DNA of 45,171 nt from NCBI GenBank assembly GCA_017465905.1, contig JAFTVE010000022.1:1-45171 (forward strand). Reading direction: 5' to 3'. The DNA comes from Bacteroidaceae bacterium. GTDB taxonomy: Bacteria > Bacteroidota > Bacteroidia > Bacteroidales > Bacteroidaceae. The notes below the pieces were generated by a model. It ran no database searches and was not told where the DNA came from. It saw only the letters and a program-made list of their open reading frames with translations. Below, one piece after another: positions 20,259 to 45,011 of this stretch. Position numbers and translations under genes: made by a program. Positions within the stretch are counted from its first letter, which is position 1. The number at the start of each line of letters is the position of its first letter.

Positions 20259-20338
20259 CTACCTGCAAGCAGAAATCTTTCTGCCTGCAAGTAGAATATA
20301 TTATGCTTGCAGCAGGAAAGCATTCTACTTGCAGGGAG
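20259..20338. repeat. 22-bp-period palindrome array A (TGCA core)
   Basis: Four 14-bp imperfect palindromes, at 20259-20272, 20281-20294, 20303-20316 and 20325-20338, are separated by exactly 8 bp. Each has the form CTxCyTGCAzGxAG, with TGCA at 20264, 20286, 20308 and 20330. The array fills the gap between the PH-like gene and the acyltransferase. It has the same geometry as arrays at 30680 and 44932 but a different palindrome. Confidence 0.85.
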
Positions 20339-20403
20339 AAATAAGAATGGAAAAAGAGATTTTGAAGTGAGATTGGCAACTAATGCTTTAGGTGATATTT
20401 GCT

Positions 20404-21588
20404 ATGGGAACAACGGACAATAGGCAACGCTATTACTTTATCGACAATCTGCGCTGGGTGACCGTGGTGCTGGTGCTCATCTACCACGTGTTCTACAACT
20501 TCAATGCGCAGGGAGTCTTTGGCGGCATCGGTGGCTTTGCCGAGCATCAGTGGCAGGATGTGGTGGGTACGGTGCTCTATCCGTGGTTCATGACCTTGAT
20601 GTTCCTGCTTGCAGGCATGTCGAGCCGCTATGCCTTGCAGCATCGTACGGCGCGGGAGTTTCGCCGAGAGCGTACACGTAAGTTGCTCGTGCCCTCCACG
20701 CTTGGTCTGCTCGTCTTTGGTTGGGTGTTGGGCTTCGTCAACATGAAAGCAGGCGGTGGAGTGCTGCCCGAGGAGGTGCCTGGCGTGGTGAAGTTCCTGA
20801 TTGGTGTGATAAGCGGAACGGGTCCCTTGTGGTTTATCCAAGACCTTTATGTGTTCTCGCTATTGCTGCTTGTGGTGCGCAAGGCGTTGGATGTCGATAG
20901 GGTGGAGGCGTGGCTGGCTCGGTGCTCAAAAAGGGAGATATGGCTTGTGCTCTTTGCCTTCCTCCTTCTGTTGGGACTTTTGGCTCAGACACAGCTTGAC
21001 GAGGTGGAAACATTTGGTGGCCTCTTGAATTTGTACCGCCCCATCTACTACTTTAGCGTTTTCCTCGTGGGCTACTACATCTTCTCTTCGGAGCGCATAC
21101 ACGACTTTTTGGCTCGTGAGCGCTTTGTGTTAGGCATGACGGCTATCATATGGTGCGTATACTTCTGTGTGCGCTACTATGGGGAGGATTACACCGCTCC
21201 CGCCGTGTTGCAGGGTTTCCCGTGCGGCATTTATTGCTGGTCAATGACGTTGACGCTCATCGGACTCTTCAAACACCGTTGCGACTGCACCACACCCTTC
21301 TCGCAGTACATGACGCGCAGCAGCTACGGACTCTATATCGTGCATATGACCGTGTGTACCTCCGCTTGTCTGTGGCTCAAGTCCACCGCACTGCCTGTGT
21401 GGAGCATCTACTGCCTTGCCCTCATTGCCACCTTTGCCGGCTCGGTGCTGTTGTGGGAGGTGCTGCGCAGGATACCATTTATACGGTGGTGCGTGTTTGG
21501 GATAGGGAGAGAGGGGCCTCACCCTACCCCTCTCCCAAGGAGAGGGAACTCAGACATCTTGGCTAATAGTCAAATAACCCAATTGTAA
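20404..21588 (+). CDS. Membrane acyltransferase, Acyltransferase_3 family
   Basis: The 394-residue protein begins YYFIDNLRWVTVVLVLIYHVFYNF, the typical first helix with a conserved His of Acyltransferase_3 proteins, and has about ten membrane helices ending near residue 360. Such enzymes O-acetylate sugars, lipids or peptides at the membrane; the substrate is unknown. The chosen ATG (20404) follows a near -7 box (GATATTTG, 20394-20401). The last roughly 25 residues (GREGPHPTPLPRRGNS...) are encoded by a G/C-rich dispersed repeat and are unlikely to be functional. Confidence 0.85.
   Translation: MGTTDNRQRYYFIDNLRWVTVVLVLIYHVFYNFNAQGVFGGIGGFAEHQWQDVVGTVLYPWFMTLMFLLAGMSSRYALQHRTAREFRRERTRKLLVPSTLGLLVFGWVLGFVNMKAGGGVLPEEVPGVVKFLIGVISGTGPLWFIQDLYVFSLLLLVVRKALDVDRVEAWLARCSKREIWLVLFAFLLLLGLLAQTQLDEVETFGGLLNLYRPIYYFSVFLVGYYIFSSERIHDFLARERFVLGMTAIIWCVYFCVRYYGEDYTAPAVLQGFPCGIYCWSMTLTLIGLFKHRCDCTTPFSQYMTRSSYGLYIVHMTVCTSACLWLKSTALPVWSIYCLALIATFAGSVLLWEVLRRIPFIRWCVFGIGREGPHPTPLPRRGNSDILANSQITQL
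21504..21549. repeat. Dispersed GC-rich repeat at the acyltransferase 3' end
   Basis: The stretch GGGAGAGAGGGGCCTCACCC followed by TACCCCTCTCCCAAGGAGAGGG contains a CCCTCTCC/GGAGAGGG stem. Sequences of this type, giving PHPNPLP-like translations, recur in many bacterial genomes. It replaces or extends the gene's C-terminus. Confidence 0.65.
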
Positions 21589-21592
21589 ATCA

Positions 21593-21620
21593 ATAGTAAA
21601 TAGTAAATTGTCAAATTGTA
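21593..21620 (+). repeat. Heptamer repeat between acyltransferase and protease genes
   Basis: Units ATAGTAA, ATAGTAA, ATTGTCA and AATTGTA run through the 42-bp gap and end 10 bp before the next ATG. Less regular copies extend leftwards to about 21572, into the acyltransferase 3' end. Confidence 0.7.
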
Positions 21621-21630
21621 AATATCTATT

Positions 21631-22533
21631 ATGACACAATCAACCAACAAACAGGAGTTTCGCCGCATCTGGCTCTTTCTCCTCATCACTTTCACGATGA
21701 CTTTTGCCTGGACTATCGGGCTTATCTGGCCCCGTGTGCTTGGACGCGATGCTGCTACACTCACTGCCGAGGAGACACTCATCAATACCGCACTCACTGC
21801 CGTGCTGATGTTCTTCCCTGCCATCGGTGTGCTCATCACCCGACTGATTACTCGCGAGGGATTCAAGAACTCCATGCTGCGCCTCAACCTGAAGGGCAAC
21901 GTGCGCTACTACCTCATCGGCTGGTTCGGCCCCTTCGTACTGACCGTCATCGGTTCGGTGCTCTACTACCTTATCTTCCCCTCGGAGTTTACGCTCTCGT
22001 CCTATTATGCTCAGATGGCTACGTTGCCTGTTTCTGTGAAGACATTTTGGATAGTGCAACTGCTGCTGATGCTCGTGGCTCCGCTGCTCAACCTCGTCGC
22101 TTGCTTTGGCGAAGAGTGGGGTTGGCGTGGATACCTGTTGCCCAAGGTAGCCAGTCGCATGAAGTTTCTGCCCACGGTGCTCGTTACGGGACTTATCTGG
22201 GGCGTATGGCATGCACCCATCATTGCTGCGGGACACAACTATGGTATGGACTATCCCGGCTATCCGTTTGCGGGAATCGTGGCCATGTGTCTGCTATGTA
22301 TCGTGTTAGGAACACTATTCTCCTATATCACCCTGAAGACCAAGAGCTGCTGGCCTGCCGTGTTTGCCCATGGCATGATGAATGGCACCGCCTCTATCGG
22401 CGTCATCTTCCTTGCCGACCCTATGGCCTACGACCGCTTCGTAGGGCCTGTGCCTACAGGCATCATCGGTGCTGCAGCCTATATCGTGGTGGCGGTATGG
22501 ATAGTGTGGAAAATGCGTAAGGAGGAAAAATAA
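21631..22533 (+). CDS. CPBP-family intramembrane glutamic endopeptidase
   Basis: The 300-residue membrane protein shows the three CPBP/Abi motifs: GEEWGWRGYLLP (about 158-169), GVWHAP (about 190-195) and FAHGMMNG (about 243-250). About eight membrane helices are visible. Members cleave prenylated or other membrane proteins, or protect against bacteriocins; the substrate is unknown. A terminator follows directly, shared with miaA. Confidence 0.88.
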   Translation: MTQSTNKQEFRRIWLFLLITFTMTFAWTIGLIWPRVLGRDAATLTAEETLINTALTAVLMFFPAIGVLITRLITREGFKNSMLRLNLKGNVRYYLIGWFGPFVLTVIGSVLYYLIFPSEFTLSSYYAQMATLPVSVKTFWIVQLLLMLVAPLLNLVACFGEEWGWRGYLLPKVASRMKFLPTVLVTGLIWGVWHAPIIAAGHNYGMDYPGYPFAGIVAMCLLCIVLGTLFSYITLKTKSCWPAVFAHGMMNGTASIGVIFLADPMAYDRFVGPVPTGIIGAAAYIVVAVWIVWKMRKEEK

Positions 22534-22540
22534 AATGAAT

Positions 22541-22569
22541 GAGGGTGCCACTTGGCATCCTCTTTTTTT
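22541..22569 (+). terminator. Rho-independent terminator after the CPBP gene
   Basis: GAGGGTGCCA, loop CT, TGGCATCCTC and a run of seven T form a classic terminator, overlapping the miaA stop codon on the other strand. Confidence 0.9.
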
Positions 22570-23470
22570 ATAGCTGACTATCCAGATAGGCTATTATGTC
22601 CTCGTTGTCATCGGGATGGAACCACTGGATGCTATCGTCGCGGCGGAACCATGTCATCTGCTTGCGCGAATAGATGCGACTGTTCTGCTTAATCTTCTCA
22701 ATGGCAAACTCCAGCGTGCAGTCCCCGTCGAAGTGGGCAAACAGCTCCTTGTAGCCTACGGTGTTGAGTGAGTTGAGTTGACGGTGGGGATATACGCTAC
22801 GTGCCTCTTCGACAAGGCCGTCGGCCACCATTTGGTCTACTCGGCGATTGATGCGGTCGTACAGTTCCTCGCGTTCGCGGCGTAGACCAATCTTGACGAT
22901 GCGGAAGGGACGCTCCTTGGCTGTGCGTGTGCGGAAAGAGGTATAGGTGCGCCCCGTCATATAGCATATCTCGAGAGCGTGGATGACACGCTTGGGATTC
23001 TTCAGGTCTACGATGCGGTAGTACTCGGGGTCGAGCAGGCGCAGTTCATTGACCAAGGGCTCCAGTCCCTCCTGTTCGTAGCGGTCGAGCAGCGTACGGC
23101 GTGTGATGTCGTCCACGGTGGGAATATCATCAATACCTTTGCATACGGCATCGATATACATCATGCTTCCGCCCGTAAGCAATAGAGTGTCGTGTGAGTG
23201 GAATAGCTCTTCGGTGAGTTTCAATACGTCAATCTCGTATTGTGCTGCGCTGTAGTAGTCCGTCAGGTGATGTGTGCCTATGAAGTAATGCTTTACCCGC
23301 TCCTGCTCCTCCTTCGTTGGTGCTGCTGTTCCGATAGGAATTTCGGCATATAATTGACGCGAATCGGCCGAAAGGATAGGAGAACCTAACCGTTCGGCCA
23401 ATGCAAAACTCAGTGCCGTTTTTCCTACACCTGTAGGGCCAAGGAGCACGACTAAAGTCTTATCTTTCAC
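22568..23470 (-). CDS. miaA: tRNA dimethylallyltransferase
   Basis: The 300-residue enzyme adds the dimethylallyl group to A37 of tRNAs reading UNN codons. The P-loop GPTGVGKT (11-18), [34 protein letters not shown] and the tRNA-binding [16 protein letters not shown] are present, as is the C-terminal KQMTWFR. Length is normal. It is the last gene of the lpxD-lpxC-lpxA-x-miaA run, as in other Bacteroidales. Confidence 0.96.
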
Positions 23471-23484
23471 TCTTTATGCTTTGC

Positions 23485-24039
23485 TTAATAGAGTATGCTA
23501 TCGTCAAAGTCGGCCGGAGAGCCCATATCGAAGCCGTCGGGGTCAATCTCGTCAAGGTCGAAGTCCTCATCGTCGCCGAAGCTGTCGTCGAGCGCTGTGG
23601 TGCTCACCTGCGCAGCCATCAGCTGGTCGAAGTCGAGCAATTGCTGTGGAGCCTCACCCGTCTGCTTGGTGCATACGGCTTCGTCGAGATTCTTGCCTGT
23701 GATTATTTCGGTAAGCTCAATGAAGAAGGCGCGGTCGGCCAGCGGGTCGAAGATGTAGAGCAAGTGCTGCTTCTCCTCCTCGAGGAGTTCGCTCAGCGGA
23801 GTCTCTTCCATAATCCAGCTATCCACATCTGAACTGGTGCCCATATCTTCCAATGTGACTTCGGTCTCCTTCTCCCAATTGTCATCGCATACGAAGAATG
23901 AGGTCATCTGGTCGTTAGGATAACCTACTGACTTCAGAATGGCATTGTGGAAATCAAGGAATGTGGCGTCAGAGTCAATCTGGATCTCTCTGCGGAAGTT
24001 GTCAATCTCGTCAGAGATAATGGTGAAGCGGTATACCAT
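23485..24039 (-). CDS. pRiA4b ORF-3-like (IS1096 TnpR-like) protein
   Basis: The 184-residue protein begins VYRFTIISDEIDNFRREIQIDSDATFLDFHNAI and continues with SFFVCDDNWEKETEV, the layout of the plasmid pRiA4b ORF-3 / IS1096 passenger TnpR family. The C-terminal third is very acidic (DDSFGDDEDFDLDEIDPDGFD). Despite the family name it lies in a housekeeping operon between lpxA and miaA and is not part of an insertion sequence. Its function is unknown. Confidence 0.8.
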   Translation of the reverse strand: MVYRFTIISDEIDNFRREIQIDSDATFLDFHNAILKSVGYPNDQMTSFFVCDDNWEKETEVTLEDMGTSSDVDSWIMEETPLSELLEEEKQHLLYIFDPLADRAFFIELTEIITGKNLDEAVCTKQTGEAPQQLLDFDQLMAAQVSTTALDDSFGDDEDFDLDEIDPDGFDMGSPADFDDSILY

Positions 24040-24047
24040 ATATGATG

Positions 24048-24081
24048 AGTTTTTTAGTTCTTAAGTTTTTGAGTTTATAAG
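24048..24081. repeat. Degenerate 7-9 bp repeat between lpxA and the next gene
   Basis: Loose copies of AGTTTTTT, AGTTCTT, AAGTTTTTG, AGTTTAT and AAGTTAT fill the short gap from the lpxA stop to the following start. The stretch resembles the heptamer junction repeats elsewhere but is less regular. Confidence 0.45.
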
Positions 24082-24864
24082 TTATCCTTCGTATCTGATG
24101 ATGCCTCGTTTGGCTCCTTCGATGAACGAAATGATGTATTCTATCTCGGGAGTCATCTCCATCTCTTCCTTGATGCGTTCAATGGCCATTGTGGTGTTGA
24201 GGCCGCTCTGGTAGATGATGCGATAGGCTTGGTGTATAGCATCGATTTGCTCATTGGTGAAGCCGCGACGACGCAAGCCGATAAGGTTTACGCCACAGTA
24301 TGAAATGGGCTCACGGGCAGCGATGATGTAAGGAGGAATCTCCTTGCTGCTCTTGCAACCACCTTGTACCATGACATAGCTTCCGATGCGGCAGAACTGG
24401 TGTACGAGCACCGTAGAGCTCAGGATAGCATAGTCGTCAACGATTACTTCACCAGCCAGCTTGGTCTGGTTGCCGATGATACAGCCGTTGCCTACGATGG
24501 TGTCGTGGGCAACGTGTACGCCCTCCATCAGCAGGTTGCCATTGCCTACTATCGTCTTTCCCTTGGCTGCGGTACCGCGGTTGATGGTCACATTCTCGCG
24601 GATGGTGTTGTTATCGCCCACCTCGGCTGTAGTCTCCTCGCCACGGAACTTGAGGTCCTGCGGTATGGCACCGATGACTGCTCCGGGGAAGATGGTGTTG
24701 CCATTTCCGATGCGCGAGCCATAGAGGATGTTGGCATTGGGCATGATGACGTTGTTGTCGCCTATCACCACATTGCGGTCAATGTATACGAAGGGACCAA
24801 TCTCCACGTTCTCGCCAATGACGGCTTCGGGGTGGATATATGCTAATGGACTAATCTTGCTCAT
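24082..24864 (-). CDS. lpxA: UDP-N-acetylglucosamine acyltransferase
   Basis: The 260-residue enzyme catalyses the first acylation step of lipid A synthesis in the cytoplasm. It is a left-handed beta-helix of hexapeptide repeats (VIGENVEIGPFVYIDRNV, GNGNTIFPGAVIG), with a catalytic His in GVHVAHDTIVG and the C-terminal helical domain YRIIYQSGLNTTMAIERI. Length and order are normal. A hairpin lies in the 67-bp gap to lpxC. Confidence 0.95.
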   Translation of the reverse strand: MSKISPLAYIHPEAVIGENVEIGPFVYIDRNVVIGDNNVIMPNANILYGSRIGNGNTIFPGAVIGAIPQDLKFRGEETTAEVGDNNTIRENVTINRGTAAKGKTIVGNGNLLMEGVHVAHDTIVGNGCIIGNQTKLAGEVIVDDYAILSSTVLVHQFCRIGSYVMVQGGCKSSKEIPPYIIAAREPISYCGVNLIGLRRRGFTNEQIDAIHQAYRIIYQSGLNTTMAIERIKEEMEMTPEIEYIISFIEGAKRGIIRYEG

Positions 24865-24900
24865 ATCTATTGATGTGTTTAGTTCTTATATATAAATATA

Positions 24901-24923
24901 GGTATAGGAGCGGCTCCTATACC
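24901..24923. terminator. Hairpin between lpxC and lpxA
   Basis: GGTATAGGAGC and GCTCCTATACC form an 11-bp perfect inverted repeat with one base between, 8 bp after the lpxC stop (minus strand). There is no clear T-run, so it may be an attenuator or processing site rather than a full terminator. It lies where the FabZ domain would normally continue. Confidence 0.6.
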
Positions 24924-24931
24924 TTCTCTGT

Positions 24932-25840
24932 TTATTTCATTCTCTCTCTCAGCAGGCGGGCAAACTGGTTGTTCACTCTGTGCCCGGGGCGGTTGGCCAC
25001 GATGTAGCCTTTGATGGGACGTCCTAGGAGCGACATGTCGCCTATGATGTCGAGCAGTTTATGTCGCGCCGGCTCATTTTCCCATACCAAGGGGCGGTGG
25101 TTGATATAGCCCAGCTTTTTCGCATCCATATGTGGAACTTTCATTACATCGGCCAAGCGGTCGTAACGCTCTTGCGACATCTCACGTTCGTAGATAACGA
25201 TGGAGTTGTCGAGGTCGCCCCCCTTGATGAGGCCTGCTGCAAGCAGCGGTTCCACGTCGCGTACGAACACGAAGGTGCGGCTCGATGCAATCTCTTTCGG
25301 GAAATCCTCCATGTGCATCAGTACAGCTCGTTGGTTGCAGATGATGCTTGAGTCGAACGAAACGAGTACGTTCACCGCAAACTCCTCGGCAGGCATGATC
25401 ATGAGTGATGAGCCGCTCTTCTCGTCGTGATATTCGATGGTTTCTGTCACTACGAAATAGTTCTTCTCGGCTTCCTGCTCCACAATGCCTACTCGCTGTA
25501 TGTTGTCGACATACAGTTTGGCACTACCTTCGAGAATCGGGAACTCGGGACCGTTGACCTTGATGAGGCAGTTGTCGATGCCGAGTGCATAGAGTGCCGA
25601 TAGGCCATGCTCTACGGTGCTGACGCGCTCAGTGCCGTTTGAGAGCACGGTGCCGCGCTGTGTCTCGTTGACGTTTTCGGCCAGTGCCTCAATGATGGGC
25701 TCTCCCTCCACGTCGATGCGTTGTATCTTATATCCAAAGTTCTCCGGTGCAGGGTTGAACTCCACGGTGAGGTTGAGTCCCGTGTGCAGTCCCTTTCCGG
25801 ACAATGAAAAACTCTCTTTTATCGTGCGTTGTTTTGCCAT
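24932..25840 (-). CDS. lpxC: UDP-3-O-acyl-GlcNAc deacetylase without the fused FabZ domain
   Basis: The 302-residue zinc deacetylase makes the committed step of lipid A synthesis. Zinc ligands are visible as the His of STVEHGL (about 79), and the His and Asp of ARHKLLDIIGD (about 238 and 242). The catalytic His is in NRPGHRVNNQFA (about 265). In Bacteroidota LpxC is usually fused to a C-terminal FabZ dehydratase, giving about 460 residues. Here the frame stops at RLLRERMK, just where the linker should start, so the length equals that of Proteobacterial LpxC. No FabZ-like sequence follows in any nearby frame that I could see. The gene starts 8 bp after lpxD ends. Confidence 0.94.
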   Translation of the reverse strand: MAKQRTIKESFSLSGKGLHTGLNLTVEFNPAPENFGYKIQRIDVEGEPIIEALAENVNETQRGTVLSNGTERVSTVEHGLSALYALGIDNCLIKVNGPEFPILEGSAKLYVDNIQRVGIVEQEAEKNYFVVTETIEYHDEKSGSSLMIMPAEEFAVNVLVSFDSSIICNQRAVLMHMEDFPKEIASSRTFVFVRDVEPLLAAGLIKGGDLDNSIVIYEREMSQERYDRLADVMKVPHMDAKKLGYINHRPLVWENEPARHKLLDIIGDMSLLGRPIKGYIVANRPGHRVNNQFARLLRERMK

Positions 25841-25848
25841 ATCTTGTT

Positions 25849-26901: not shown

Positions 26902-26943
26902 CTATCTGTTCTGCTCTAAATGGTACATTACTTTATATCCGTG

Positions 26944-26974
26944 CAAAGGTAGGCATTATTCTTGTATTTTCAAA
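26944..26974 (-). promoter_or_regulatory. Promoter of the lpxD-lpxC-lpxA-x-miaA operon
   Basis: On the minus strand TTTG (26974-26971), a 19-bp spacer and TACCTTTG (26951-26944) match the Bacteroidota consensus fully. The ATG at 26901 follows after about 42 bp. Confidence 0.8.
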
Positions 26975-27072
26975 TCTTTATTCCCAATATCTTCTCCTAT
27001 GGGTCATGTTATGATACCCAAATAGGACAATAAAGGTCAATTTTAATTATTTTTAGGAAATATGAACAATTC

Positions 27073-27101
27073 CCGAGAGGGAATGCCAACGTCCCTCTCG
27101 G
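27073..27101 (-). terminator. Hairpin after the HD phosphohydrolase gene
   Basis: CCGAGAGGGA and TCCCTCTCGG form a 10-bp stem with a 9-nt loop, 37 bp beyond the stop. The T-run is weak, so termination is likely but not certain. Confidence 0.6.
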
Positions 27102-27137
27102 TTAATGGTTGTAATTAAGTATGTTAAGAATAAGAAT

Positions 27138-28376: not shown

Positions 28377-28385
28377 TTGAAACGA

Positions 28386-28393
28386 CAAAGGTA
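28386..28393 (-). promoter_or_regulatory. -7 box of the HD gene
   Basis: TACCTTTG on the minus strand is an exact TAnnTTTG match, 10 bp before the ATG at 28376. It overlaps the first unit of the 83-bp tandem repeat. Confidence 0.6.
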
Positions 28394-28575
28394 GCAAAAA
28401 ACGAGCGAAATATAAAGCTTGCTTTAATATTTCTCAGCGAGTGCCAGCTAACCTTCTTGGCACAGCCATAAAGGTAGCAAAAAACGAGCGAAATATAAAG
28501 CTTGCTTTAATATTTCTCAGCGAGTGCCAGCTATTCTTCTTGGCGCAGCCATAAAGGTAGCCATAAACGAGCAAT
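28387..28575. repeat. 83-bp tandem repeat, 2.3 copies, in the divergent promoter region
   Basis: Units start at AAAGGTAGC at 28387, 28470 and 28553, and the first two are nearly identical over 83 bp. Each holds a TAAAGCTTGCTTTA palindrome and a GTGCCA/TGGCAC stem. The first base block overlaps the -7 box of the HD gene; in later copies the box has lost its final G. The duplication increases the distance between the two divergent promoters. Confidence 0.88.
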
Positions 28576-28576
28576 T

Positions 28577-28633
28577 GCAATACTTTTGCAATATGTTTTC
28601 TTATGCTTATTCGGGTAAAAACTGCTAAATTTG
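28577..28633 (+). promoter_or_regulatory. Island promoter 1: paired 11-bp direct repeats plus -7 box
   Basis: GCAATACTTTTGCAATA (28577-28593) contains two GCAATA sites 11 bp apart. TAAATTTG (28626-28633) is the -7 box, 38 bp from the start of the second site. No good -33 element is present, which suggests activator dependence. The regulator ATG follows at 28661. Confidence 0.7.
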
Positions 28634-28660
28634 CCGTGAATATCAAAAATATCAGGTGCT

Positions 28661-30289
28661 ATGCAAAAGTGTTCCCTATCCCATACGTTGGCTTTTGTGC
28701 TGAGTATGCTCCTTCTCGTTGCATGTCGCGACAACGCTACGCTCCACCGTCTGGAGACGATAGCCCAAGTCATTGATGCCAATCCTGAGCAGGCTTGGTA
28801 CATGCTCGACAGCATCGACTACGCCACGCTGCGTGGCGAGGCCCGCGCCCTCTATGCCCTGCTCGCCACGCAGGCCGACTACCAGTGCTATGTGCCGCTG
28901 ACCTCCGACTCGCTCATCCGCACTGCCACCGCCTACTATGGCAACGACAAGCCCGACTACCGTGCTGCCATGGCCCGCTACTACCTGGGCTGCACCTACA
29001 CCGAGCTGGAGCGCGATGCCGATGCCGTGGGTGCCTATATGCAGGCACTGACGCTCTTCCCCGACACCACGGTGCGCCAGTATGCCCTGTGCCGGCAGAA
29101 TATGGCCCGCCACTACCGCAACCGCAACATGTTTGCCGAGAGCCTCGATGCCTTCCGCGCCTTCCGCGCCTCGATGCTCCTGCGGGGCAAACCGGCCGAC
29201 GTAGCCAATGCCGACTATCAGATAGCGCTCACCTATTTATATATGGAGCAGTGGGACGAGGCCGAGCCGCGCTTCCGTTCCCTCGTCGACAATCCTGCCA
29301 CGCCACGCCTCGTGGCCGACAATGCCTGCTTCCAGCTGGCCAAGATTGCCTGCTACCATACGGAGCACTACGATGAAGCCCTGCAATACCTCAACCGCCA
29401 CATCGCTTCGGTAGGCGATACCCGCCGCCTCGGCCCCGACTACAGCGTGAAGGGCGATGTGTTCCTTGCCCTTGGGCAGACCGACTCGGCCCGCCACTAC
29501 TTCGGTCTTTCGCTCATCCCCGGTCGCGACGTGTATGCCGACTGCAACACCTATTATAAACTGATGGAGCTGGACCTTGCCGAGGGGCGCACCGACTCGG
29601 TGCCTGCCTACCTGGCACGCCACACCGTGCTGCTCGACTCCATCGCCCGCATGCAGAGCCGTGCCGAGGTGGAGCGCGTGCGGGGCGAGCACCAGATAGC
29701 CATGCACGACCGCATGCTACGCCACCGCCACACCCGCTTCGTGCTTCTGGGCTCCATCGTCGTCGTCACCCTCGCGCTGCTGCTCGTGGTGCTGTTTGCC
29801 GCCATCGACAATCGCCGCAAAGCCCGCTACATACGCTTGCAGAAGCAGCTGGCACAAAACCGTGCCGAGATGCTGGCCCTCACCGCCATGACCGACGATG
29901 CCGACAGCGCCTCCTCTGAGCCCGACCCCGAGCGCCTCCTGACCCTGCGCCGCCAGCGTATCGACTACTGCCGTGAGGTGTTTGCCCACACCCCTTGGCG
30001 CACCCGCATCAGCCAGTTGGAACACTCCTCCGAGGCACTCACGCTGAAGGAACGCACCGAGCTGCAGCAGGTGCTCATCGACAGCTTTGCCGATGTCATG
30101 ATTGACTTCCGTACCCAGTGCCCTGCACTCACCACCAGCGACCTCCTGCTCATCATCTTCACGCTCACGGACTACTCCATCCGCACCATCTCGCTCTGCA
30201 CGGCCATCTCGGAGAACGCCTTGCGCTCGCGCAAGACTCGCATGAAAGCCAAGATGACGGAGGAGCTCTACCAATTCGTGTTCGGATAG
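28661..30289 (+). CDS. Membrane-anchored TPR protein with a C-terminal HTH-like domain, putative regulator
   Basis: The 542-residue protein starts with a signal/lipobox (LLLVAC), then about 300 residues of TPR-like helices (RAAMARYYLGCTYTELERDADAVGAY and similar). One membrane helix follows (about 358-382, VVVTLALLLVVLF), then a coiled segment, and a C-terminal region about 488-530 (LTTSDLLLIIFTLTDYSIRTISL...SENALRSRKTRMKAKM). That end resembles the LuxR-type helix-turn-helix found on many one-piece membrane regulators of Bacteroidota, so it could sense outside and act on DNA inside. The gene is strikingly GC-rich next to AT-rich flanks. It has the same promoter architecture as four downstream genes, so it may be part of, or the controller of, that regulon. 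Confidence 0.7.
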   Translation: MQKCSLSHTLAFVLSMLLLVACRDNATLHRLETIAQVIDANPEQAWYMLDSIDYATLRGEARALYALLATQADYQCYVPLTSDSLIRTATAYYGNDKPDYRAAMARYYLGCTYTELERDADAVGAYMQALTLFPDTTVRQYALCRQNMARHYRNRNMFAESLDAFRAFRASMLLRGKPADVANADYQIALTYLYMEQWDEAEPRFRSLVDNPATPRLVADNACFQLAKIACYHTEHYDEALQYLNRHIASVGDTRRLGPDYSVKGDVFLALGQTDSARHYFGLSLIPGRDVYADCNTYYKLMELDLAEGRTDSVPAYLARHTVLLDSIARMQSRAEVERVRGEHQIAMHDRMLRHRHTRFVLLGSIVVVTLALLLVVLFAAIDNRRKARYIRLQKQLAQNRAEMLALTAMTDDADSASSEPDPERLLTLRRQRIDYCREVFAHTPWRTRISQLEHSSEALTLKERTELQQVLIDSFADVMIDFRTQCPALTTSDLLLIIFTLTDYSIRTISLCTAISENALRSRKTRMKAKMTEELYQFVFG

Positions 30290-30356
30290 CGCGAAAAAAA
30301 GCACTCCTCCCTATGGCGAAAGTTCATAAATCGGTTGGCAATGGCAGTGCTTGCAC

Positions 30357-30585: not shown

Positions 30586-30679
30586 GCTTGCACACAGTAA
30601 CGATGACGATGATGTTCTTGGACGAGCCAAGTGCTTGCGCTATTAACGTTAACCTCTTTGACAAATCAGAAAAATGACG

Positions 30680-30781
30680 TAACTATCAGTACTTCTTTGC
30701 AAGTACTGCAGTACTTAGGGCAAAGTACTCGAGTACTTGCGGCTCAGTACTGGAGTACTGACGGGGAAGTACTGGATTTTG
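30680..30781. repeat. 22-bp-period palindrome array B (AGTACT)
   Basis: AGTACT occurs eight times, at 30688, 30702, 30710, 30724, 30732, 30746, 30754 and 30768. The sites form three full 14-bp palindromes (AGTACTnnAGTACT) and a half-preserved one at each end, all separated by 8-bp spacers. The period is exactly 22 bp. The spacers are not conserved. Confidence 0.92.
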
Positions 30782-30983
30782 TATTGTTTTTCGGGCAAAT
30801 AGGCCGTAACTTTACAGTGTAGAGGCGAGGAGAAATAGAATCAGCCTTAATTTCACCTCTGCCATTGCCAACCGATTTATGAACTTTCGCCATAGGGAAA
30901 CGCTTTTTTTTGTTCCGTATCGCAGTAGACGCTACAAGTCCGATAATGCAATTTTTGCCCATTTCATCAACACTTTTCGCTTT

Positions 30984-31061
30984 GCAATACTTTTGCAATA
31001 CTACTGCAATGCTTTTGCAATATTATAAAATTTGTTGGTCCTATTAATTCTAGCACCTTTG
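30984..31061 (+). promoter_or_regulatory. Island promoter 2: four 11-bp direct repeats, -33 and -7 boxes
   Basis: GCAATA-type sites start at 30984, 30995, 31006 and 31017. TTTG at 31031-31034 is the -33 element and CACCTTTG at 31054-31061 a -7 box with a weak first base. The distance from the last site to the -7 box is 37 bp. The methyltransferase starts at 31106. Confidence 0.68.
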
Positions 31062-31891: not shown

Positions 31892-31892
31892 T

Positions 31893-31996
31893 AAGTCTGC
31901 TTGTTTTGTTCCTCCGCATGCAAACTTTACTAGTCGTATGATGCAATTTTTGCCCATTTCATCGGTGCTTTTCATTTTGCAATACTTTTGCAATAC
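31893..31996 (+). repeat. Second copy of the promoter-region repeat flanking the methyltransferase
   Basis: About 95 bp here resemble 30908-31000. Both contain TTTGTTCC near the left and ATGCAATTTTTGCCCATTTC in the middle, and both end in TTTGCAATACTTTTGCAATA. The methyltransferase gene lies between these direct copies. Confidence 0.75.
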
Positions 31997-32035
31997 CCAA
32001 TTTTGTTGTTTTTTGCCGTAGAATGCCTATATTTG
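31979..32035 (+). promoter_or_regulatory. Island promoter 3: paired 11-bp direct repeats plus -7 box
   Basis: GCAATACTTTTGCAATA lies at 31979-31995, TTG at 32006-32008 and TATATTTG at 32028-32035. The second repeat starts 38 bp before the -7 box. The ATG follows at 32070. Confidence 0.7.
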
Positions 32036-34904: not shown

Positions 34905-34916
34905 CATGTGAACGTA

Positions 34917-34987: not shown

Positions 34988-35047
34988 TATAATTGGTAAA
35001 AATCTAATATCCGATGAAATGGCGCTTTTTGGAAGCATGATGCATTT

Positions 35048-35125
35048 GTTACGCATTTGTTACGCTCTTGTTACGCATTTGTTACGCTAAAAATTTGCTC
35101 TGTTCATTCTTGCTCTCTATCTTTG
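35048..35125 (+). promoter_or_regulatory. Island promoter 4: four GTTACGC repeats on an 11-bp period
   Basis: GTTACGC occurs at 35048, 35059, 35070 and 35081, exactly 11 bp apart. TTTG (35094-35097) and TATCTTTG (35118-35125), 20 bp apart, form a consensus promoter. The last repeat starts 37 bp before the -7 box, the same distance as in the GCAATA-type promoters, but the repeat sequence differs. Confidence 0.78.
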
Positions 35126-35158
35126 CCTCACCAATTTATCCAACAATCCGATACTGTT

Positions 35159-37134: not shown

Positions 37135-37155
37135 CCCTACTAAATGAATAATGAC

Positions 37156-38427: not shown

Positions 38428-38450
38428 TCTGCTATGAGCAAGTGTTGCAG

Positions 38451-38479
38451 AAGTATTGCATCGTGAAAATGCAATACTT
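38451..38479 (+). terminator. Perfect hairpin overlapping the next promoter's repeats
   Basis: AAGTATTGCAT and ATGCAATACTT form an 11-bp perfect stem with a 7-nt loop, 23 bp after the previous stop. The right arm shares GCAATAC with the direct repeats of the following promoter, so the same bases may serve as terminator and as activator site. Confidence 0.6.
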
Positions 38480-38526
38480 TTGCAATACGAAAAAGTTGTC
38501 TGAGCGTACCGATGTTTGCACCTTTG
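38471..38526 (+). promoter_or_regulatory. Island promoter 5: paired 11-bp direct repeats plus -7 box
   Basis: GCAATACTTTTGCAATA lies at 38471-38487, TTG at 38496-38498 and CACCTTTG at 38519-38526. The second repeat starts 37 bp before the -7 box. The ATG follows at 38591. Confidence 0.65.
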
Positions 38527-38590
38527 CACTGCAATCCCGACAGAGCGGGAGGCAAACAGAATCATTAACAAATCAAAAAGTACAGAGATT

Positions 38591-39850: not shown

Positions 39851-39878
39851 CACGATAATGCTTTATTGACAAAATGGT

Positions 39879-39914
39879 AGTTGAGGGTGTGTTGAATTCA
39901 ACACACCCTCAACT
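39879..39914. terminator. Perfect 36-bp palindrome, terminator of the island
   Basis: AGTTGAGGGTGTGTTGAA and its exact reverse complement lie back to back, followed by a T-rich tract. It is a strong terminator separating the accessory island from thrS. Confidence 0.85.
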
Positions 39915-39925
39915 TTGCTTTACTT

Positions 39926-39953
39926 TGTCATTCTTCGCTGTGCTCATGATGAA
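39926..39953. repeat. Relic of the TGTCATTC-type palindromic element
   Basis: TTTGTCATTCTTCGCTGTGC followed by TCATGATGA resembles the ends of the dispersed element at 16207-16289 brought together without a centre. It is short and decayed, so the assignment is tentative. Confidence 0.4.
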
Positions 39954-40050
39954 AAAAATGTGTTTTGATTCACCCTCTATTTGCTACATGGAGTCAAGGC
40001 TGTAAAAAAGGGTACAATTTGCAAAGAGGTTTTTAATTGATGGCATTAAA

Positions 40051-40082
40051 ATTGCGCATCTCGAATATTTTAGCTAATTTTG
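40051..40082 (+). promoter_or_regulatory. Promoter of thrS
   Basis: ATTG at 40051-40054 and TAATTTTG at 40075-40082, 20 bp apart, match the phylum consensus. The leader before the ATG at 40172 is about 83 nt; I see no T-box in it. Confidence 0.65.
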
Positions 40083-40171
40083 CGGCCTATTGTATGTTGG
40101 CTGCAAAATGTCTTGTTTTCGGCCTATATATAAATAAGGTATACAAAGAACAAAAATAAAAATATAGGACA

Positions 40172-42115
40172 ATGATTAAGATTACCTTCCCTGATGGCTC
40201 GGTAAGAGAGTACGAAGCTGGCGTTACCGGCTTGCAGATTGCCGAGAGTATCAGTAGCCGTCTGGCACAGGATGTGCTGGCCTGCAGCGTGAATGACGAA
40301 ATTGTGGAGCTCAACCGCCCCATCCATGAGGATGCTACCATCCGCTTGCACAAGTGGGATGATGAGCAGGCTAAGCATGCCTTCTGGCATACTTCGGCTC
40401 ACCTCCTGGCCGAGGCTTTGCAGGAGCTCTATCCGAATATCCAGTTTGGTATCGGTCCCGCTATTGAGAACGGATTCTACTATGACGTGGATCCGGGCGA
40501 GGGCGTGACCATCAAGGAGGGCGACCTTGAGGCTATCGAGAAGAAGATGGCTGAGTTGGTTGCCAAGAATGAGAATGTAGTGCGCAACGAAATCTCCAAG
40601 GCCGAGGTGCTGAAGATGTTCGGTGACCGTGGCGAGACCTATAAATGCGAACTTATCTCAGAACTTGAGGATGGTACCATCACCACTTACACTCAGGGCG
40701 CGTTTACCGACCTCTGCCGTGGACCTCACTTGGTGTCTACAGCTCCCATCAAGGCTATCAAGCTTACCTCTGTGGCCGGTGCTTACTGGCGTGGCGACGA
40801 GAACCGCAAGATGATGACCCGTATCTATGGTATCAGCTTCCCCAAGAAGAAAATGCTCGATGAGTACCTGGTGCTGATGGAGGAGGCCAAGAAGCGCGAC
40901 CACCGCAAGATTGGCAAGGAACTCGAGCTCTTCATGTTTACTGAGATGGTGGGCAAGGGCTTGCCTATGTGGTTGCCTCGCGGTACCGCTCTACGTCTGC
41001 GCTTGGAGGATTTCTTGAAGCGCATCCAGAAGCGTTTCGGCTACCAGCAGGTGATGACTCCGCATATCGGTAACAAGCAGCTCTATGTGACTTCTGGTCA
41101 CTGGGATCACTATGGCAAGGACAGCTTCCAGCCCATCACCACTCCTGAGGAGGGTGAGATGTATTTGCTGAAGCCGATGAACTGCCCCCACCACTGTATG
41201 ATTTACAAGTGGCAGCCTCGCTCATACAAGGACCTGCCTTTGCGCTTGGCCGAGTTCGGTACCGTATACCGTTATGAGCAGAGTGGTGAGCTTCACGGCT
41301 TGACCCGTGTGCGCAGCTTCACTCAGGACGATGCCCACATCTTCTGCCGCCCCGACCAGGTGAAGGAGGAGTTTATCCGCGTAATGGAGATTATCCAGAT
41401 TATCTTCAAGGCGCTCAACTTTGAGAACTATGAGGCTCAGATTTCATTGCGCGACCCCAACAATACCACCAAGTATGTAGGTTCTGACGAGAATTGGGCA
41501 CGTGCCGAGCAGGCTATCGTGGAGGCTTGCGAGGAGAAGGGGCTGAAGGCTCGCGTAGAGACAGGCGAGGCTGCTTTCTACGGTCCCAAACTCGACTTCA
41601 TGGTGAAGGATGCTATCGGTCGTCGTTGGCAGTTGGGTACCATTCAGGTAGACTACAACTTGCCCGAGCGCTTCCAGTTGGAGTATACCGGTTCGGACAA
41701 CCAGAAGTATCGTCCCGTAATGATTCACCGTGCACCCTTCGGCTCAATGGAGCGTTTCGTGGCAGTGCTCATCGAGCACACCGGTGGTAAGTTCCCCTTG
41801 TGGCTCACCCCCGACCAAGTGGCTATTCTGCCTATCTCGGAGAAGTTCAACGACTATGCCGAGCAGGTGAAGAAGGAGCTTGAGCAGTACGACGTACGTT
41901 GCATCATCGATGACCGCAACGAGAAGATTGGCCGTAAGATTCGCGACAACGAGGTGAAGCATATTCCTTATATGTTAGTCGTTGGCGAAAAAGAGCAGGC
42001 CGAGGGTACTGTTACTGTACGCAGACAAGGCGGAATCAACGAAGGAAGCCTGAAAATTGCAGAATTTGGTAAGAAGATCGAAGAAGAAGTTAATAATATG
42101 ATAAATGAATGGTAA
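40172..42115 (+). CDS. thrS: Threonyl-tRNA synthetase
   Basis: The 647-residue class II synthetase charges tRNA-Thr. In order it shows a TGS domain (1-62), the editing domain with [11 protein letters not shown] and the later HxxxC-like region, the catalytic core ([44 protein letters not shown]) and the anticodon-binding C-terminus ([19 protein letters not shown]-like). Length is normal. It begins the conserved thrS-infC-rpmI-rplT block but has its own promoter; infC has another. Confidence 0.98.
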
Positions 42116-42123
42116 CTTTTGCC

Positions 42124-42279
42124 AGTAGAAGATAGGCTGCACCTCGGAAAAAGTTAAATAAATTTGTTTTTTTTGCTCGGTTTGCACTATCTTTAACTTG
42201 TTATGACAAGTAGAAGATAGGCTGCACCTCGGAAAAAGTTAAATAAATTTGTTTTTTCGCTCAGTTTGCACTATCTTTG
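42124..42279 (+). promoter_or_regulatory. Tandemly duplicated infC promoter, one copy apparently inactive
   Basis: An 85-bp segment starting AGTAGAAGATAGGCTGCACC occurs at 42124 and again at 42209. Each contains a TTTG -33 element. The downstream copy has an exact -7 box, TATCTTTG (42272-42279), with a 20-bp spacer. The upstream copy reads TATCTTTA (42188-42195), having lost the G. Confidence 0.85.
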
Positions 42280-42280
42280 C

Positions 42281-42313
42281 GCCCGCATTTAACAATGTGG
42301 GCGGCAAGATTGC
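42281..42313 (+). promoter_or_regulatory. infC leader hairpins
   Basis: GCCCGCATT/AATGTGGGC (42281-42302, one G-U pair) is followed by a small GGCAA/TTGCC hairpin. They lie at the very 5' end of the predicted infC-rpmI-rplT transcript and may be the site of the L20 autoregulation known in other bacteria, or simply stabilise the mRNA. Confidence 0.45.
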
Positions 42314-42392
42314 CGTTTTGTGGCGTTTGATACAGAACAAAAAAGGATTAATAACCATTAAAAAAGACAGCAGAACAAACAAATTCATCTGA

Positions 42393-42962
42393 ATGAAAAA
42401 AGACAATTTAAAAGGCCAACACCGTATCAATGAACAGATACGAGCCAAAGAAGTCCGAATTGTCGGTGACAACATTGAACCTACCGTAGTGTCAATCCAT
42501 GAAGCACTAAGAATAGCCGAAGAGAATGAGGCTGACTTGGTAGAAATCTCACCGAACGCCGTTCCGCCTGTTTGCAGAATTATTGATTACTCAAAGTTCC
42601 TGTATCAGCTGAAGAAGAAACAGAAGGAGATGAAGGCCAAGCAAGTGAAGATTGACGTTAAGGAAATCCGCTTCGGCCCTCAGACTGACGACCACGACTA
42701 CAACTTCAAGCTTAAGCATGCCATTGGCTTCCTTAAGGATGGTGATAAGGTTAAGGCATATGTATTCTTCAAAGGACGCTCAATCCTCTTCAAAGAGCAG
42801 GGCGAGGTGCTGTTGCTGCGTTTTGCCAACGACCTCGAGGAGTATGGTAAGGTAGACCAGATGCCTGTACTCGAAGGTAAGCGCATGACCATCTTCATTT
42901 CACCGAAGAAGGCTGCCGCTCCCAAGAAAGAGAAGCCCGCTCAGCAGAAAGATGAAAATTGA
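42393..42962 (+). CDS. infC: Translation initiation factor IF-3
   Basis: The 189-residue factor shows [35 protein letters not shown] and the C-terminal domain [21 protein letters not shown]. It binds the 30S subunit and selects the initiator tRNA. The start is ATG, not the AUU used in enterobacteria. The alanine/lysine tail ([14 protein letters not shown]) is usual in this phylum. Confidence 0.97.
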
Positions 42963-43040
42963 AAGTGGAAAGATGAAAGTTGACATCTTGAATCCATGAG
43001 TGGGTAACTTTCATCTGTCATCTTTCAACTATAAACTTGA
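42963..43040. repeat. Inverted heptamer repeats between infC and rpmI
   Basis: The left arm 42963-42983 (AAGTGGA, AAGATGA, AAGTTGA) starts at the infC stop. The right arm 43006-43040 reads AACTTTC, ATCTGTC, ATCTTTC, AACTATA, AACTTGA. The arms are complementary. A further 70 bp before rpmI contains a possible TGCGT/ACGCA stem. Confidence 0.75.
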
Positions 43041-43110
43041 GAAAGAAGCGGCTGCGTGCCGGTATAGTACGCACCGTTTATATATTAATAATTAAATAAT
43101 AACTAACAAC

Positions 43111-43308
43111 ATGCCAAAAGTTAAGACTAACTCCGGTTCAAAAAAAAGATTCGCTCTTACCGGAACAGGTAAAATCAAGAGAAAGCACGCTTATCACAGT
43201 CACATCTTGACAAAGAAGACTAAGAAGCAAAAACGTAACCTCGACCACTTCACACTTGTACATGGTGCAAACGTAAGCCAGGTTAAGGAACTTCTTGCAA
43301 TGAAGTAA
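43111..43308 (+). CDS. rpmI: 50S ribosomal protein L35
   Basis: The 65-residue protein reads [20 protein letters not shown] and [14 protein letters not shown], the standard L35 sequence. It lies between infC and rplT in the conserved operon. Confidence 0.97.
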
Positions 43309-43411
43309 TCTTAAAGTTAAGCGAGTTATTCTAAAAACAATTATTAATCGGATGGTTAGCAAAACCAAGACTGCCCCGAGCAGCGCTAACATCTAAAAAC
43401 GAAACAAAACT

Positions 43412-43762
43412 ATGCCAAGATCAGTAAATCATGTTGCTTCAAGAGCAAAGAGAAAGAAAATTTTAGGTTTAACCAGAGGTTACTTCGGTGCTCGTAAGAA
43501 CGTTTGGACCGTTGCCAAGAATACTTGGGAGAAGGGTTTGACCTACGCTTACCGCGACCGTAAGAATAAGAAGCGCAACTTCCGTGCGTTGTGGATCCAG
43601 CGTATCAACGCTGCCGCTCGTCTCGAGGGTATGTCTTATTCTCAACTGATGGGTGCATTGCACAAGGCTGGTATCGAGATCAACCGTAAGGTGCTCGCCG
43701 ACCTCGCAATGAATCATCCTGAAGCTTTCAAGGCTATCGTAGCTAAGGCTAAGGCTGCTTAA
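43412..43762 (+). CDS. rplT: 50S ribosomal protein L20
   Basis: The 116-residue protein shows [35 protein letters not shown] and [17 protein letters not shown]. It is an early assembly protein of the large subunit and, in studied bacteria, represses its own operon. It ends the operon before a strong terminator. Confidence 0.97.
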
Positions 43763-43821
43763 TTGTGGCTCACGCGGCTTAAATAACCACTTGCGAAATA
43801 GTGTTATTTAACATGATAATG

Positions 43822-43848
43822 AAAAAAGAGGCTTCGGCCTCTTTTTTT
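43822..43848 (+). terminator. Terminator of the infC-rpmI-rplT operon
   Basis: AAAAAAGAGGC, a TTCG tetraloop and GCCTCTTTTTTT form a textbook terminator. Confidence 0.95.
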
Positions 43849-43864
43849 ATTGGAGAAAAGTTCC

Positions 43865-43872
43865 TATATTTG
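43865..43872 (+). promoter_or_regulatory. -7 box downstream of rplT
   Basis: TATATTTG is an exact match. It would start a transcript near 43879 in a region without a gene for 360 bp. Confidence 0.6.
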
Positions 43873-43878
43873 CATTAG

Positions 43879-44200
43879 CAAAGGCAGAGAAATACGCCTC
43901 TCGTGGCAAACATTCTGACTTTGAGCTGTGTTCTTTGAAGTAGAAAACAACGATGACGAAAACGATGACGAAGACATCTCATAGGTTAGCGTTAAGGTTA
44001 TCGTTAACGTTGTGAAAATATAGTCGTGTCGGTTTAGACTGGGAAACTCATCAATTATATCTGAAAACCGAGGACAGCTTCGACTTCCAATGGCGGGCCA
44101 CGCCCCGTAAGGGGTAACCTTGAGTCGGTGGATTACAAAGGGGGCGAGCACTCAAATCCTATTTCTCGGAGTTTCATCGCATCAACCCGGCACGACTTCT
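43879..44200 (+). ncRNA. Candidate structured RNA or long leader (possibly Bacteroidales-1/6S-like)
   Basis: The stretch has its own -7 box, no open frame that looks real, and nested pairing: GAAACT (44043-44048) with AGTTTC (44170-44175), CCGAG (44068-44072) with CTCGG (44165-44169), CGACT (44081-44085) with AGTCG (44123-44127), and a CCCC/GGGG hairpin (44103-44114). A competing CGAG/CTCG pair (44145-44148, 44165-44168) is also possible. From memory, the Bacteroidales-1 RNA, later proposed to be 6S RNA, is found behind L20 genes with such a promoter, but I cannot confirm its consensus here. It may instead be the 5' leader of the gene at 44241. The 3' end is not defined. Confidence 0.4.
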
Positions 44201-44240
44201 TTATATATATAAACGCCAAAAGGTTAATAAACGTACTGTT

Positions 44241-44612
44241 GTGGGTAGAAACAAATTTTCAAAACGCGAAATAGACATTATCGGTAAGCTGCTGAGCCGT
44301 AAGATGGCAGGCAACCGCAATCAGCAGAAGATGGTGAGACATACGCTTCGCACTGTCTTTGACTTCAACATCTCTGATTTCAACGTGCAAGGAAAGGCCT
44401 TCGGACCCGAAGACCTGCAATCTTGTGTGCGCCGTGGCGTTATCCATATCTTGGATGATGCAACCATAGAGACCATGAAGGTGCGCTATGCCGAAAAGAA
44501 ACAGCACGAGGAGGCTCTACGCCAAGCTGAGGCTGTGGCCGATGGCGAAGCGGTAGATTGGCAAGAGGTGCAGCGCCAGTGGGACGAATATTACGCCCAG
44601 CATCCGGAATGA
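44241..44612 (+). CDS. Small conserved Bacteroidales protein of unknown function
   Basis: The 123-residue protein begins GRNKFSKREIDIIGKLL and continues RNQQKMVRHTLRTVFDFNISDFN, FGPEDLQSCVRRGVIHILDDATIE and an acidic C-terminal helix. I recall similar unnamed proteins in other Bacteroidales but know no function. It starts at GTG, the only plausible start near the conserved sequence. It has no promoter of its own that I can see and may be read from the one at 43865. Confidence 0.75.
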   Translation: MGRNKFSKREIDIIGKLLSRKMAGNRNQQKMVRHTLRTVFDFNISDFNVQGKAFGPEDLQSCVRRGVIHILDDATIETMKVRYAEKKQHEEALRQAEAVADGEAVDWQEVQRQWDEYYAQHPE

Positions 44613-44673
44613 CTCTATCAAATTTATAATGCCTCAAATGGCTATGTAGCATAACTTGTATTGGTGGCAAAGA

Positions 44674-44713
44674 AGCGCGTGAGACCTTAGAGTCTTACGC
44701 GCTTGTTTTTTTC
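44674..44713 (+). terminator. Terminator after the small conserved gene
   Basis: GCGCGTGAGAC, loop CTTAGA, GTCTTACGCGC and a T-run form a good Rho-independent terminator. From here to the window end (44714-45171) I see no supported gene, only a small GTAAAG/CTTTAC hairpin near 44750 and array C. Confidence 0.9.
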
Positions 44714-44931
44714 AGAAAAATGACTTTTCCGGGATGTTTTCGGCAAAAAGTGTAAAGAAACTTTACAATTTTCGCTCAAAAAAGCGTTTTTTCGATTTTT
44801 TCTTGCGATAGTGCTTGCCCGTGTGAGTAACTTCGCTAAGCAAATCGGAACAAAAGAATTTATGCCAATCCATATGAGAAAAAACGAAAGCGTACAGCCA
44901 ATAAACCGCGAGTACAAAGCAAAAAACTCTC

Positions 44932-45011
44932 GTAACCGTGGATACGTAATGAAATATCCATGGATACGTGATGAAATATCCGCGGATATTTAATGAAATA
45001 TCCACGGATAC
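44932..45011. repeat. 22-bp-period palindrome array C (ATATCCnnGGATAC)
   Basis: Four 14-bp palindromes, at 44932-44945 (left half degenerate), 44954-44967, 44976-44989 and 44998-45011, are separated by exactly 8 bp. Half-sites are ATATCC and GGATAC/T. The 8-bp spacers are also conserved here (GTAATGAA, GTGATGAA, TTAATGAA). Total length, unit number and geometry equal those of array A. Confidence 0.92.

Follow-up and report, generated by a model that had tools for sequence, protein, structure and literature searches.

Palindromic 22-bp lattices in a Bacteroidaceae genome as candidate binding sites of paralogous HU-winged-helix proteins

A 45,171-nucleotide contig of a Bacteroidaceae bacterium (GenBank assembly GCA_017465905.1, contig JAFTVE010000022.1), which was analysed over its full length and is referred to here as the window, contains three arrays of palindromic units that repeat every 22 bp around unrelated core sequences. 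Based on sequence comparisons across related genomes, these arrays are very probably binding lattices for paralogous Bacteroidales proteins in which an HU domain is joined to a C-terminal domain. These proteins belong to the HU-HIG family (PF18291, "HU domain fused to wHTH, Ig, or Glycine-rich motif"), and those with a C-terminal, probably winged-helix (wHTH), part are called HU-wHTH below. In the proposed arrangement, the HU part would probably set the common 22-bp step, one dimer would occupy each unit so that four lie side by side across 88 bp, and the sequence of the core would be set by residues particular to each protein.

Array 1 (positions 20255..20342, no strand assigned, as for the other two) is the class 1 array of the window. 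It has the core TCTRYYYGCRRRYAGA in four 22-bp units and sits in a 147-bp gap between two genes that are both on the + strand. Array 2 (30687..30774), of class 2, has the core AGTACTnnAGTACT with TCCWWGGA-like spacers, likewise in four 22-bp units over 88 bp. Array 3 (44928..45015), of class 3, has the core ATATCCRYGGATAT with dyads at 44938/9, 44960/1, 44982/3 and 45004/5, and is followed downstream by an insertion sequence (IS) end and then by the contig end at 45171. The initial annotation of the window had placed three arrays with an exact 22-bp period at these sites, and all three are present. It had also assigned them a common geometry of two 6-bp arms around 2 bp (6-2-6). The shared period holds, and the 6-2-6 form does not hold as a general rule: a strict scan for it recovers arrays 2 and 3 and misses array 1, the unit of which is a longer imperfect palindrome, TTCTRYYYGCRRRYAGAA. 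Array 2, previously described as three units with decayed ends, is better read from dyad to dyad as four units, because three full palindromes with a half site on each side is the commonest form of the AGTACT (class 2) arrays in other records (61/113). The remainder of these 113 have fewer or more units, or are missing a terminal half site.

The 22-bp spacing is a true period, common to about a dozen unrelated cores. This period was evaluated by scanning for four-unit palindromic arrays at periods of 16–44 with a score of 23 or more out of 32 pairs. A 647-kb part of the genome to which the window belongs (G000), taken without regard to arrays, has eight arrays at period 22, compared with a mean of 0.08 for each other period (33 and 44 set aside), and one block shuffle of the same DNA gives a single array across periods 16–60. 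Another 468 kb of G000, picked around known copies and including the window, contains 17 at period 22. Samples from two other genomes, G005 (344 kb) and G023 (400 kb), have 0 and 1 such arrays and show no excess. G005 nevertheless has a lattice at one of its two HU-wHTH genes. Arrays of this kind are thus far commoner than in shuffled DNA, and their classes recur in many related genomes.

All three window arrays are members of dispersed families. Class 1 matches are found in 10 of 19 genomes of the genus and class 2 matches in 6 of the 19 as well as in other Bacteroidales, while class 3 matches occur in 10 of 41 genomes, all from this genus (the class 3 search hit 13 genomes, three of them by the IS end alone). 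The exact AGTACT pattern is present in at least 112 stretches. Among the matches listed, the 80 titles are Bacteroidales by name, including Phocaeicola plebeius, Bacteroides mediterraneensis, Prevotella disiens and Paraprevotella metagenome-assembled genomes; two Candidatus genera among them are presumably Bacteroidales. Further cores found in G000 and the closely related G013 include CTCGCGAG, ACCGCGGT, TGAYAAANNTTTRTCA, AAACTnnAGTTT, TTTCACAGGTGTGAAA, CTCAGTAGTTACTGAG, AATCGCNNNNGCGATT, TTCGCGAA and GTACACATATGTAC. For classes 1 and 3, a genome carries the core in further intergenic regions as well, from several up to about a dozen of them. With a simple gene caller of our own, no array lies within a predicted gene (0/35 in G000, 0/21 in G013 and 0/113 for AGTACT). 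In viral contigs, the exact class 1 and class 3 patterns are absent and the AGTACT pattern is found in one contig. Where both neighbours could be named (the edge was too near for 12/56 G000 and G013 arrays and 26/113 AGTACT arrays), the AGTACT arrays occupy 36 convergent, 42 tandem and 9 divergent gaps, an enrichment of convergent and a depletion of divergent gaps. For arrays with other cores, a preference for convergent gaps is not clear (G000 has 5 convergent, 15 tandem and 7 divergent gaps, and G013 has 2, 10 and 5). No neighbour of the AGTACT arrays is dominant: 470 neighbouring proteins fall into 338 clusters, the largest of which, sensor-kinase-like, has 17 proteins from nine loci.

Two sequence features were seen next to arrays. 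Short reading frames that resemble one another, recognized by eye, overlap several class 3 arrays; they start with MRK or MKK and end with ISADI (L037 from 9737, the window from 44875, L032 and L005). A dispersed repeat containing GCCAACCGATTTATGAACTTTCGCCA flanks array 2 in inverted orientation (30320-30356 and 30855-30895) and is also found near other class 2 arrays and IS ends.

The candidate binder emerges from the genes next to the arrays. Among the proteins of ~203–217 residues that adjoin G000 arrays, 3/10 are PF18291 members, each with a different core 58–91 bp upstream, and PF18291 scores above its cut-off in 3/3 lattice-bearing genes tested. The HU part matches HU/IHF structures (E 1e-11), with the best match spanning positions 36–128 of a 30-protein profile. 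For some of eight C-terminal parts, helix-turn-helix (HTH)-type matches are observed, all below threshold, and the C-terminal domain is probably a winged helix. A profile built from seven proteins, four of them found via arrays, was used to search 14 genomes, and 79 near-full-length HU-wHTH genes, the four array-found seeds included, were taken with their upstream DNA. Genomes G000, G013 and G001 encode 9, 12 and 12 such paralogs, respectively. In the 74 genes with at least 250 bp of upstream DNA each, the best upstream period is 22 in 58, versus 11 of 200 random G000 upstream regions (Fisher p about 3e-33), and in 47 of the 74 the score for this period is above the 99th percentile of the controls. 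A strict lattice lies within 300 bp of 30/73 HU-wHTH genes versus 4/382 random genes, and none is found at the three HU-HIG genes that are missing the C-terminal domain.

Related proteins carry related cores, which speaks to the earlier question of whether a core tracks with a particular DNA-binding gene. Across 55 genes, core similarity correlates with protein similarity for both the C-terminal part (Mantel r 0.62) and the HU part (0.64), each with p 0.0005, the floor of the test. When the proteins are grouped by C-terminal identity, cores within types F (five genomes), D (four) and G (three) correlate at means of 0.94, 0.83 and 0.87, respectively. At the level of sequence, the array core follows the HU-wHTH paralog. 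The class 1 lattice is located upstream of type A/A' genes, which are present in 7/8 class-1-positive genomes and 0/3 negative ones. The class 3 lattice is located upstream of type G genes in G000, G002 and G008, and type G genes are present in 6/8 class-3-positive genomes and 0/3 negative ones. Based on this co-occurrence and these upstream lattices, array 1 is most likely a candidate site of the type A/A' protein and array 3 of the type G protein.

Several observations weigh against this assignment of arrays to HU-wHTH proteins. Of the 74 genes, 16 do not have 22 as their best upstream period (seven have 21 and nine another), and five protein clusters show a looser agreement of cores (mean r 0.57–0.77). 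Partial Mantel tests give no indication that the C-terminal domain in particular reads the core, and the winged-helix designation is based on the Pfam description together with the below-threshold matches. Some genomes lack the expected partner: no type A gene was found in G002, which has a class 1 array, and no type G gene in G007 and G010, which carry class 3 arrays, all three genomes being incomplete. In addition, the class 3 lattice is within 300 bp of only 3/6 type G genes; in the exceptions, an IS lies in between (G013) or the array is about 0.9 kb upstream (G001, G011). No protein is matched to the G000 cores TGAYAAA/TTTRTCA, AAACT/AGTTT, TTTCACAGGTGTGAAA and AATCGC/GCGATT, or to the G013 core GTACACATATGTAC. 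Finally, the AGTACT lattice is present at 0 of the 79 HU-wHTH genes, though AGTACT arrays span many genera.

Of the two explanations first offered for the shared geometry, a single class of dimeric, cooperatively binding protein whose specificities have diverged is favoured by the paralog family, its 22-bp lattices and the paralog-following cores, and the arrays can be explained without the other, an array-building process that starts from different seeds. This support is direct for arrays 1 and 3 and does not extend directly to array 2, since no protein is matched to AGTACT. Array 2 may instead be the site of a different, unrelated binder that has the same geometry by chance, an explanation judged unlikely and still the strongest of the alternatives. 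Beyond the 79 genes without an AGTACT lattice, it is favoured by the lack of an adjoining HU-wHTH gene in any of 113 AGTACT loci. Against it, AGTACT arrays share with the others the size of four 22-bp units and the docking distance of an IS described below, and the position held by array 2 in the window is occupied by a class 3 array in G001, between the same flanking genes.

The position of the lattices relative to promoters suggests what they may do at the HU-wHTH genes. Bacteroidales promoters carry a −7 element with a known consensus, which was sought in a strict (TAnnTTTG) and a relaxed (TAnnTT[TC][GA]) form in the 45 bp before 53 even-centred 22-bp HU-wHTH lattices. The relaxed motif precedes 49 of the 53 (the strict motif 40), whereas base shuffles give 7.3 for the relaxed form. 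The motif starts at −22 to −27 relative to the lattice in 44/53, with 24 at −26 and 13 at −23. A lattice would thus lie shortly after the probable start of the transcript, a placement suggestive of autorepression by a roadblock, and the HU-wHTH protein most likely represses its own gene. The scattered copies differ. In G000 and G013, the strict motif is found at −28 to −21 at 2/106 ends of scattered arrays (0.37 expected), and for AGTACT arrays it is found at two places within 60 bp of 223 ends. This rarity indicates that scattered arrays are mostly not promoter operators. When bound, they would most likely form fixed, sequence-addressed HU-type nucleoprotein structures instead of promoter switches, with a role in chromosome architecture or as a barrier to transcription.

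It is improbable that the lattices are autoregulatory operators only and that the scattered copies are non-functional relics, left behind by HU-wHTH genes that have been lost. Both motif-bearing scattered arrays are class 1 arrays of G013 (L309:10306-10388 and L311:8875-8957) and are followed by what appear by eye to be remnants of type A protein ends, of about 34 codons and 5 codons, respectively; a profile search finds no gene at these remnants. Deleted HU-wHTH genes are thus a possible origin of some orphan arrays. These two are, however, the only motif-bearing cases among the 106 ends, AGTACT half sites are conserved between related loci, and the AGTACT loci have no adjoining HU-wHTH gene.

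The lattices also have a second apparent reader. The right end (IRR) of an IS3-family element occupies 45034..45171 on the + strand, where it is cut by the contig end; the distance to its start from the final dyad of array 3 is 29 bp. The preceding GAA (45031..45033, no strand assigned) is likely the 3-bp target duplication of the IS, as GAA also follows an IS left end on contig C24 (locus L349). From this single GAA case, we infer that the two contig ends belong to one insertion; an IS-free form of the insertion point is present in L036. A similar right end adjoins the end of an OrfB (rve) gene in L318 (G013), rve_3 is found in a related copy, and OrfA and OrfB accompany a left end in L328 (G002). 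As judged by OrfA, OrfB with its rve core, the inverted ends and the duplication of about 3 bp, the element qualifies as an IS3-family member. Among the copies looked at, none is complete, and eight G000 contigs stop about 139 bp inside the IS; we interpret these stops as assembly breaks at a repeat with many copies.

Right ends were compared in 21 of 22 close copies (G013 C14 was left out). In 18 of the 21, which are not independent events because some copies are orthologous, at least two array dyads lie at 28–31 bp plus multiples of 22 from the IS. The three unlocked right ends comprise C13 (1–2 bp off), G013 C63 (a decayed AGTACT-like stretch) and a G002 copy with terminator-like hairpins only. 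The cores used belong to classes 2, 3, 4 and 5 and to a GAGACT class. Since the arrays contain weaker dyads 11 bp off the main ones (stronger than the main ones at the GAGACT copy, G011 C83), the lock is certain modulo 11, and whether it holds modulo 22 depends on which dyads are taken. Left ends adjoin an array in 0/19 cases with flanks (from 30 left-end matches; 13 of the 19 are from close IS copies). The locked insertions are outside the array units, with one exception at the edge of a six-unit array that keeps the same phase. Array-bearing places that lack the IS are observed at C9:101742, paralogous to the window site, and at G000 C12:81144, for G013 C50. Similar IS ends are located 27–30 bp (+22n) from AGTACT dyads in four loci collected via the array pattern, one of them from Phocaeicola plebeius. 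With right ends locked and left ends array-free, the IS appears to insert in one orientation, keeping a set distance to lattices of any core, and would thereby use the lattice as a landing mark. The simplest reading is that it senses a shared nucleoprotein form. Separately, related IS3-type ends (G005, G015; L076, L077, L083, L084, L088, L089) are found at short GTAAC/GTTAC clusters and not at 22-bp arrays.

Targeting by an IS is also a property of repetitive extragenic palindromes (REPs) and the mosaic elements that they form (BIMEs), and the arrays could in principle be selfish palindromes of this kind, spread by a REP-associated tyrosine transposase (RAYT) or a similar enzyme with no dedicated host binder. 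This explanation is slightly more improbable still than that of relics. In its favour, the arrays are dispersed, intergenic, palindromic and multi-copy, the AGTACT class prefers convergent gaps and avoids divergent ones, and a RAYT-like gene is present. As with the IS3-family elements IS1397 and ISKpn1, which target REPs (PMC1525189), dispersed intergenic palindromes are here the targets of an IS3-family element. The arrays differ from REPs and BIMEs in that many unrelated cores share one geometry. IS1397-type insertions fall inside the palindrome; the IS described here has a single orientation, a distance of about 29 bp to a dyad and, in most cases, a position beyond the array. RAYT was rejected as the spreader of the arrays, as the gene is present but a 22-bp array is found at 0/8 Y1_Tnp loci of the genus (flanks up to 1.5 kb). 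Further points against a REP-like origin are that the 59 AGTACT elements compared show no target duplications, that hairpin-type covariation in the AGTACT class is slight, that other cores have no clear convergent bias, and that the lattices upstream of HU-wHTH genes, with their paralog-following cores, would be left unexplained. The RAYT-like Y1 transposase itself (339 aa, L300:1315-2334) is followed by two GC-rich hairpins and may have its own REP class. A 188-bp Prevotella repeat, PINSR, does not correspond to these arrays as far as the available part of its description goes (PMC4755523).

The pattern of constraint within AGTACT arrays is more readily explained by protein binding than by RNA folding. 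In 33 pairs of arrays with similar flanks, which are not independent, 1557/1584 half-site positions are identical, compared with 743/1056 in the spacers and 194/264 in the central dinucleotides and ends. The half-site value is inflated, because 24 of the 48 half-site positions at each locus were prescribed by the pattern used for collection, and this counts against the binding-lattice explanation. In 56 non-redundant elements, the first and last spacers are complementary beyond expectation (z 4.2, p 0.0005), two mismatched spacer pairings are also above shuffles (z 2.9 and 2.8, p 0.002 and 0.0035), and the inner spacer pair and the central dinucleotides give no such signal. One of the four spacers is weakly self-complementary (p 0.02). 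Base-pairing covariation is weak and, the first and last spacers excepted, not specific to hairpin-forming pairs. The conserved half sites and weak covariation fit dimer-binding sites better than hairpins. That the arrays are RNA-level elements, with tandem hairpins acting as terminators or mRNA stabilisers, is very improbable: their palindromic form, the frequent location of the AGTACT class 3' of genes and the outer spacer pairing would agree with this role, but the mismatched pairings score too, the inner pair and central dinucleotides do not, no clear T-run follows the AGTACT elements, and the HU-wHTH lattice directly follows a promoter motif. A miniature inverted-repeat transposable element (MITE) identity is not supported for the AGTACT elements, given the lack of target duplications at the 59 elements, of which one has an exact 4-bp flank repeat and none anything longer.

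If the arrays are binding lattices of HU-wHTH proteins, a broader model can be proposed tentatively, with somewhat less than an even chance of being correct as a whole: a multi-channel, sequence-addressed chromatin system in Bacteroidales. In such a system, about ten HU-winged-helix paralogs per genome, each acting as a self-limiting nucleoid protein, would have a private set of 88-bp lattices, and subsets of sites could be bent, bridged or insulated independently. Duplication, and then drift of protein and core in step, would create new channels, sites could change channel in place, and the IS3-family element would read nucleoprotein geometry, not sequence, for a safe landing.

Comparison with other systems helps to place these features. 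SlmA, Noc, MatP and ParB are autoregulated proteins that act at specific palindromic sites, modest in number and scattered over the chromosome, as a rule with one site type per genome. The scattered palindromic sites are a shared property; the difference is that about ten paralogs and several cores coexist here. Tn7-type and res-site-hunting transposons insert in an oriented manner at a fixed distance from a protein-bound landmark; here, a simple IS3-family element seems to do so, and the landmarks are unrelated in sequence. HU-HIG was already known as a Pfam family, which the lattice-bearing genes match and the HU part of which matches HU/IHF; what differs here is that many paralogs each own a lattice of four 22-bp units. 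The targeting of extragenic palindromes by IS3-family elements was likewise known (PMC1525189). In a literature search at listing level, neither a DNA target nor autoregulation was found for the HU-HIG family, and neither these arrays nor core-independent, distance-locked IS docking was found described.

The window contains additional repeats and one structured RNA. Direct 11-bp repeats of TTTGCAATACT, in 2–4 copies, are located at 28574-28595, 30981-31022, 31976-31997 and 38468-38489, upstream of genes at 28661, 31106, 32070 and 38516, and resemble a local regulon that uses sites of a different type. A second 11-bp direct repeat, GCATTTGTTAC, is present four times at 35042-35088, and near-perfect tandem duplications of 83 and 85 bp are located at 28387-28572 and 42124-42278. 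At the gathering threshold, an Rfam scan of the window finds the Bacteroidales-1 RNA (RF01693, 139.9 bits, 44022-44203), for which a 6S identity is suggested, and nothing else.

With these arrays, the widespread HU-HIG family gains specific candidate DNA sites. The many matched protein–operator pairs with one geometry make the co-evolution of specificity directly testable. A nucleoid-type protein may serve as a sequence-specific, self-regulated marker of the chromosome, and a simple IS appears to read nucleoprotein geometry instead of sequence.

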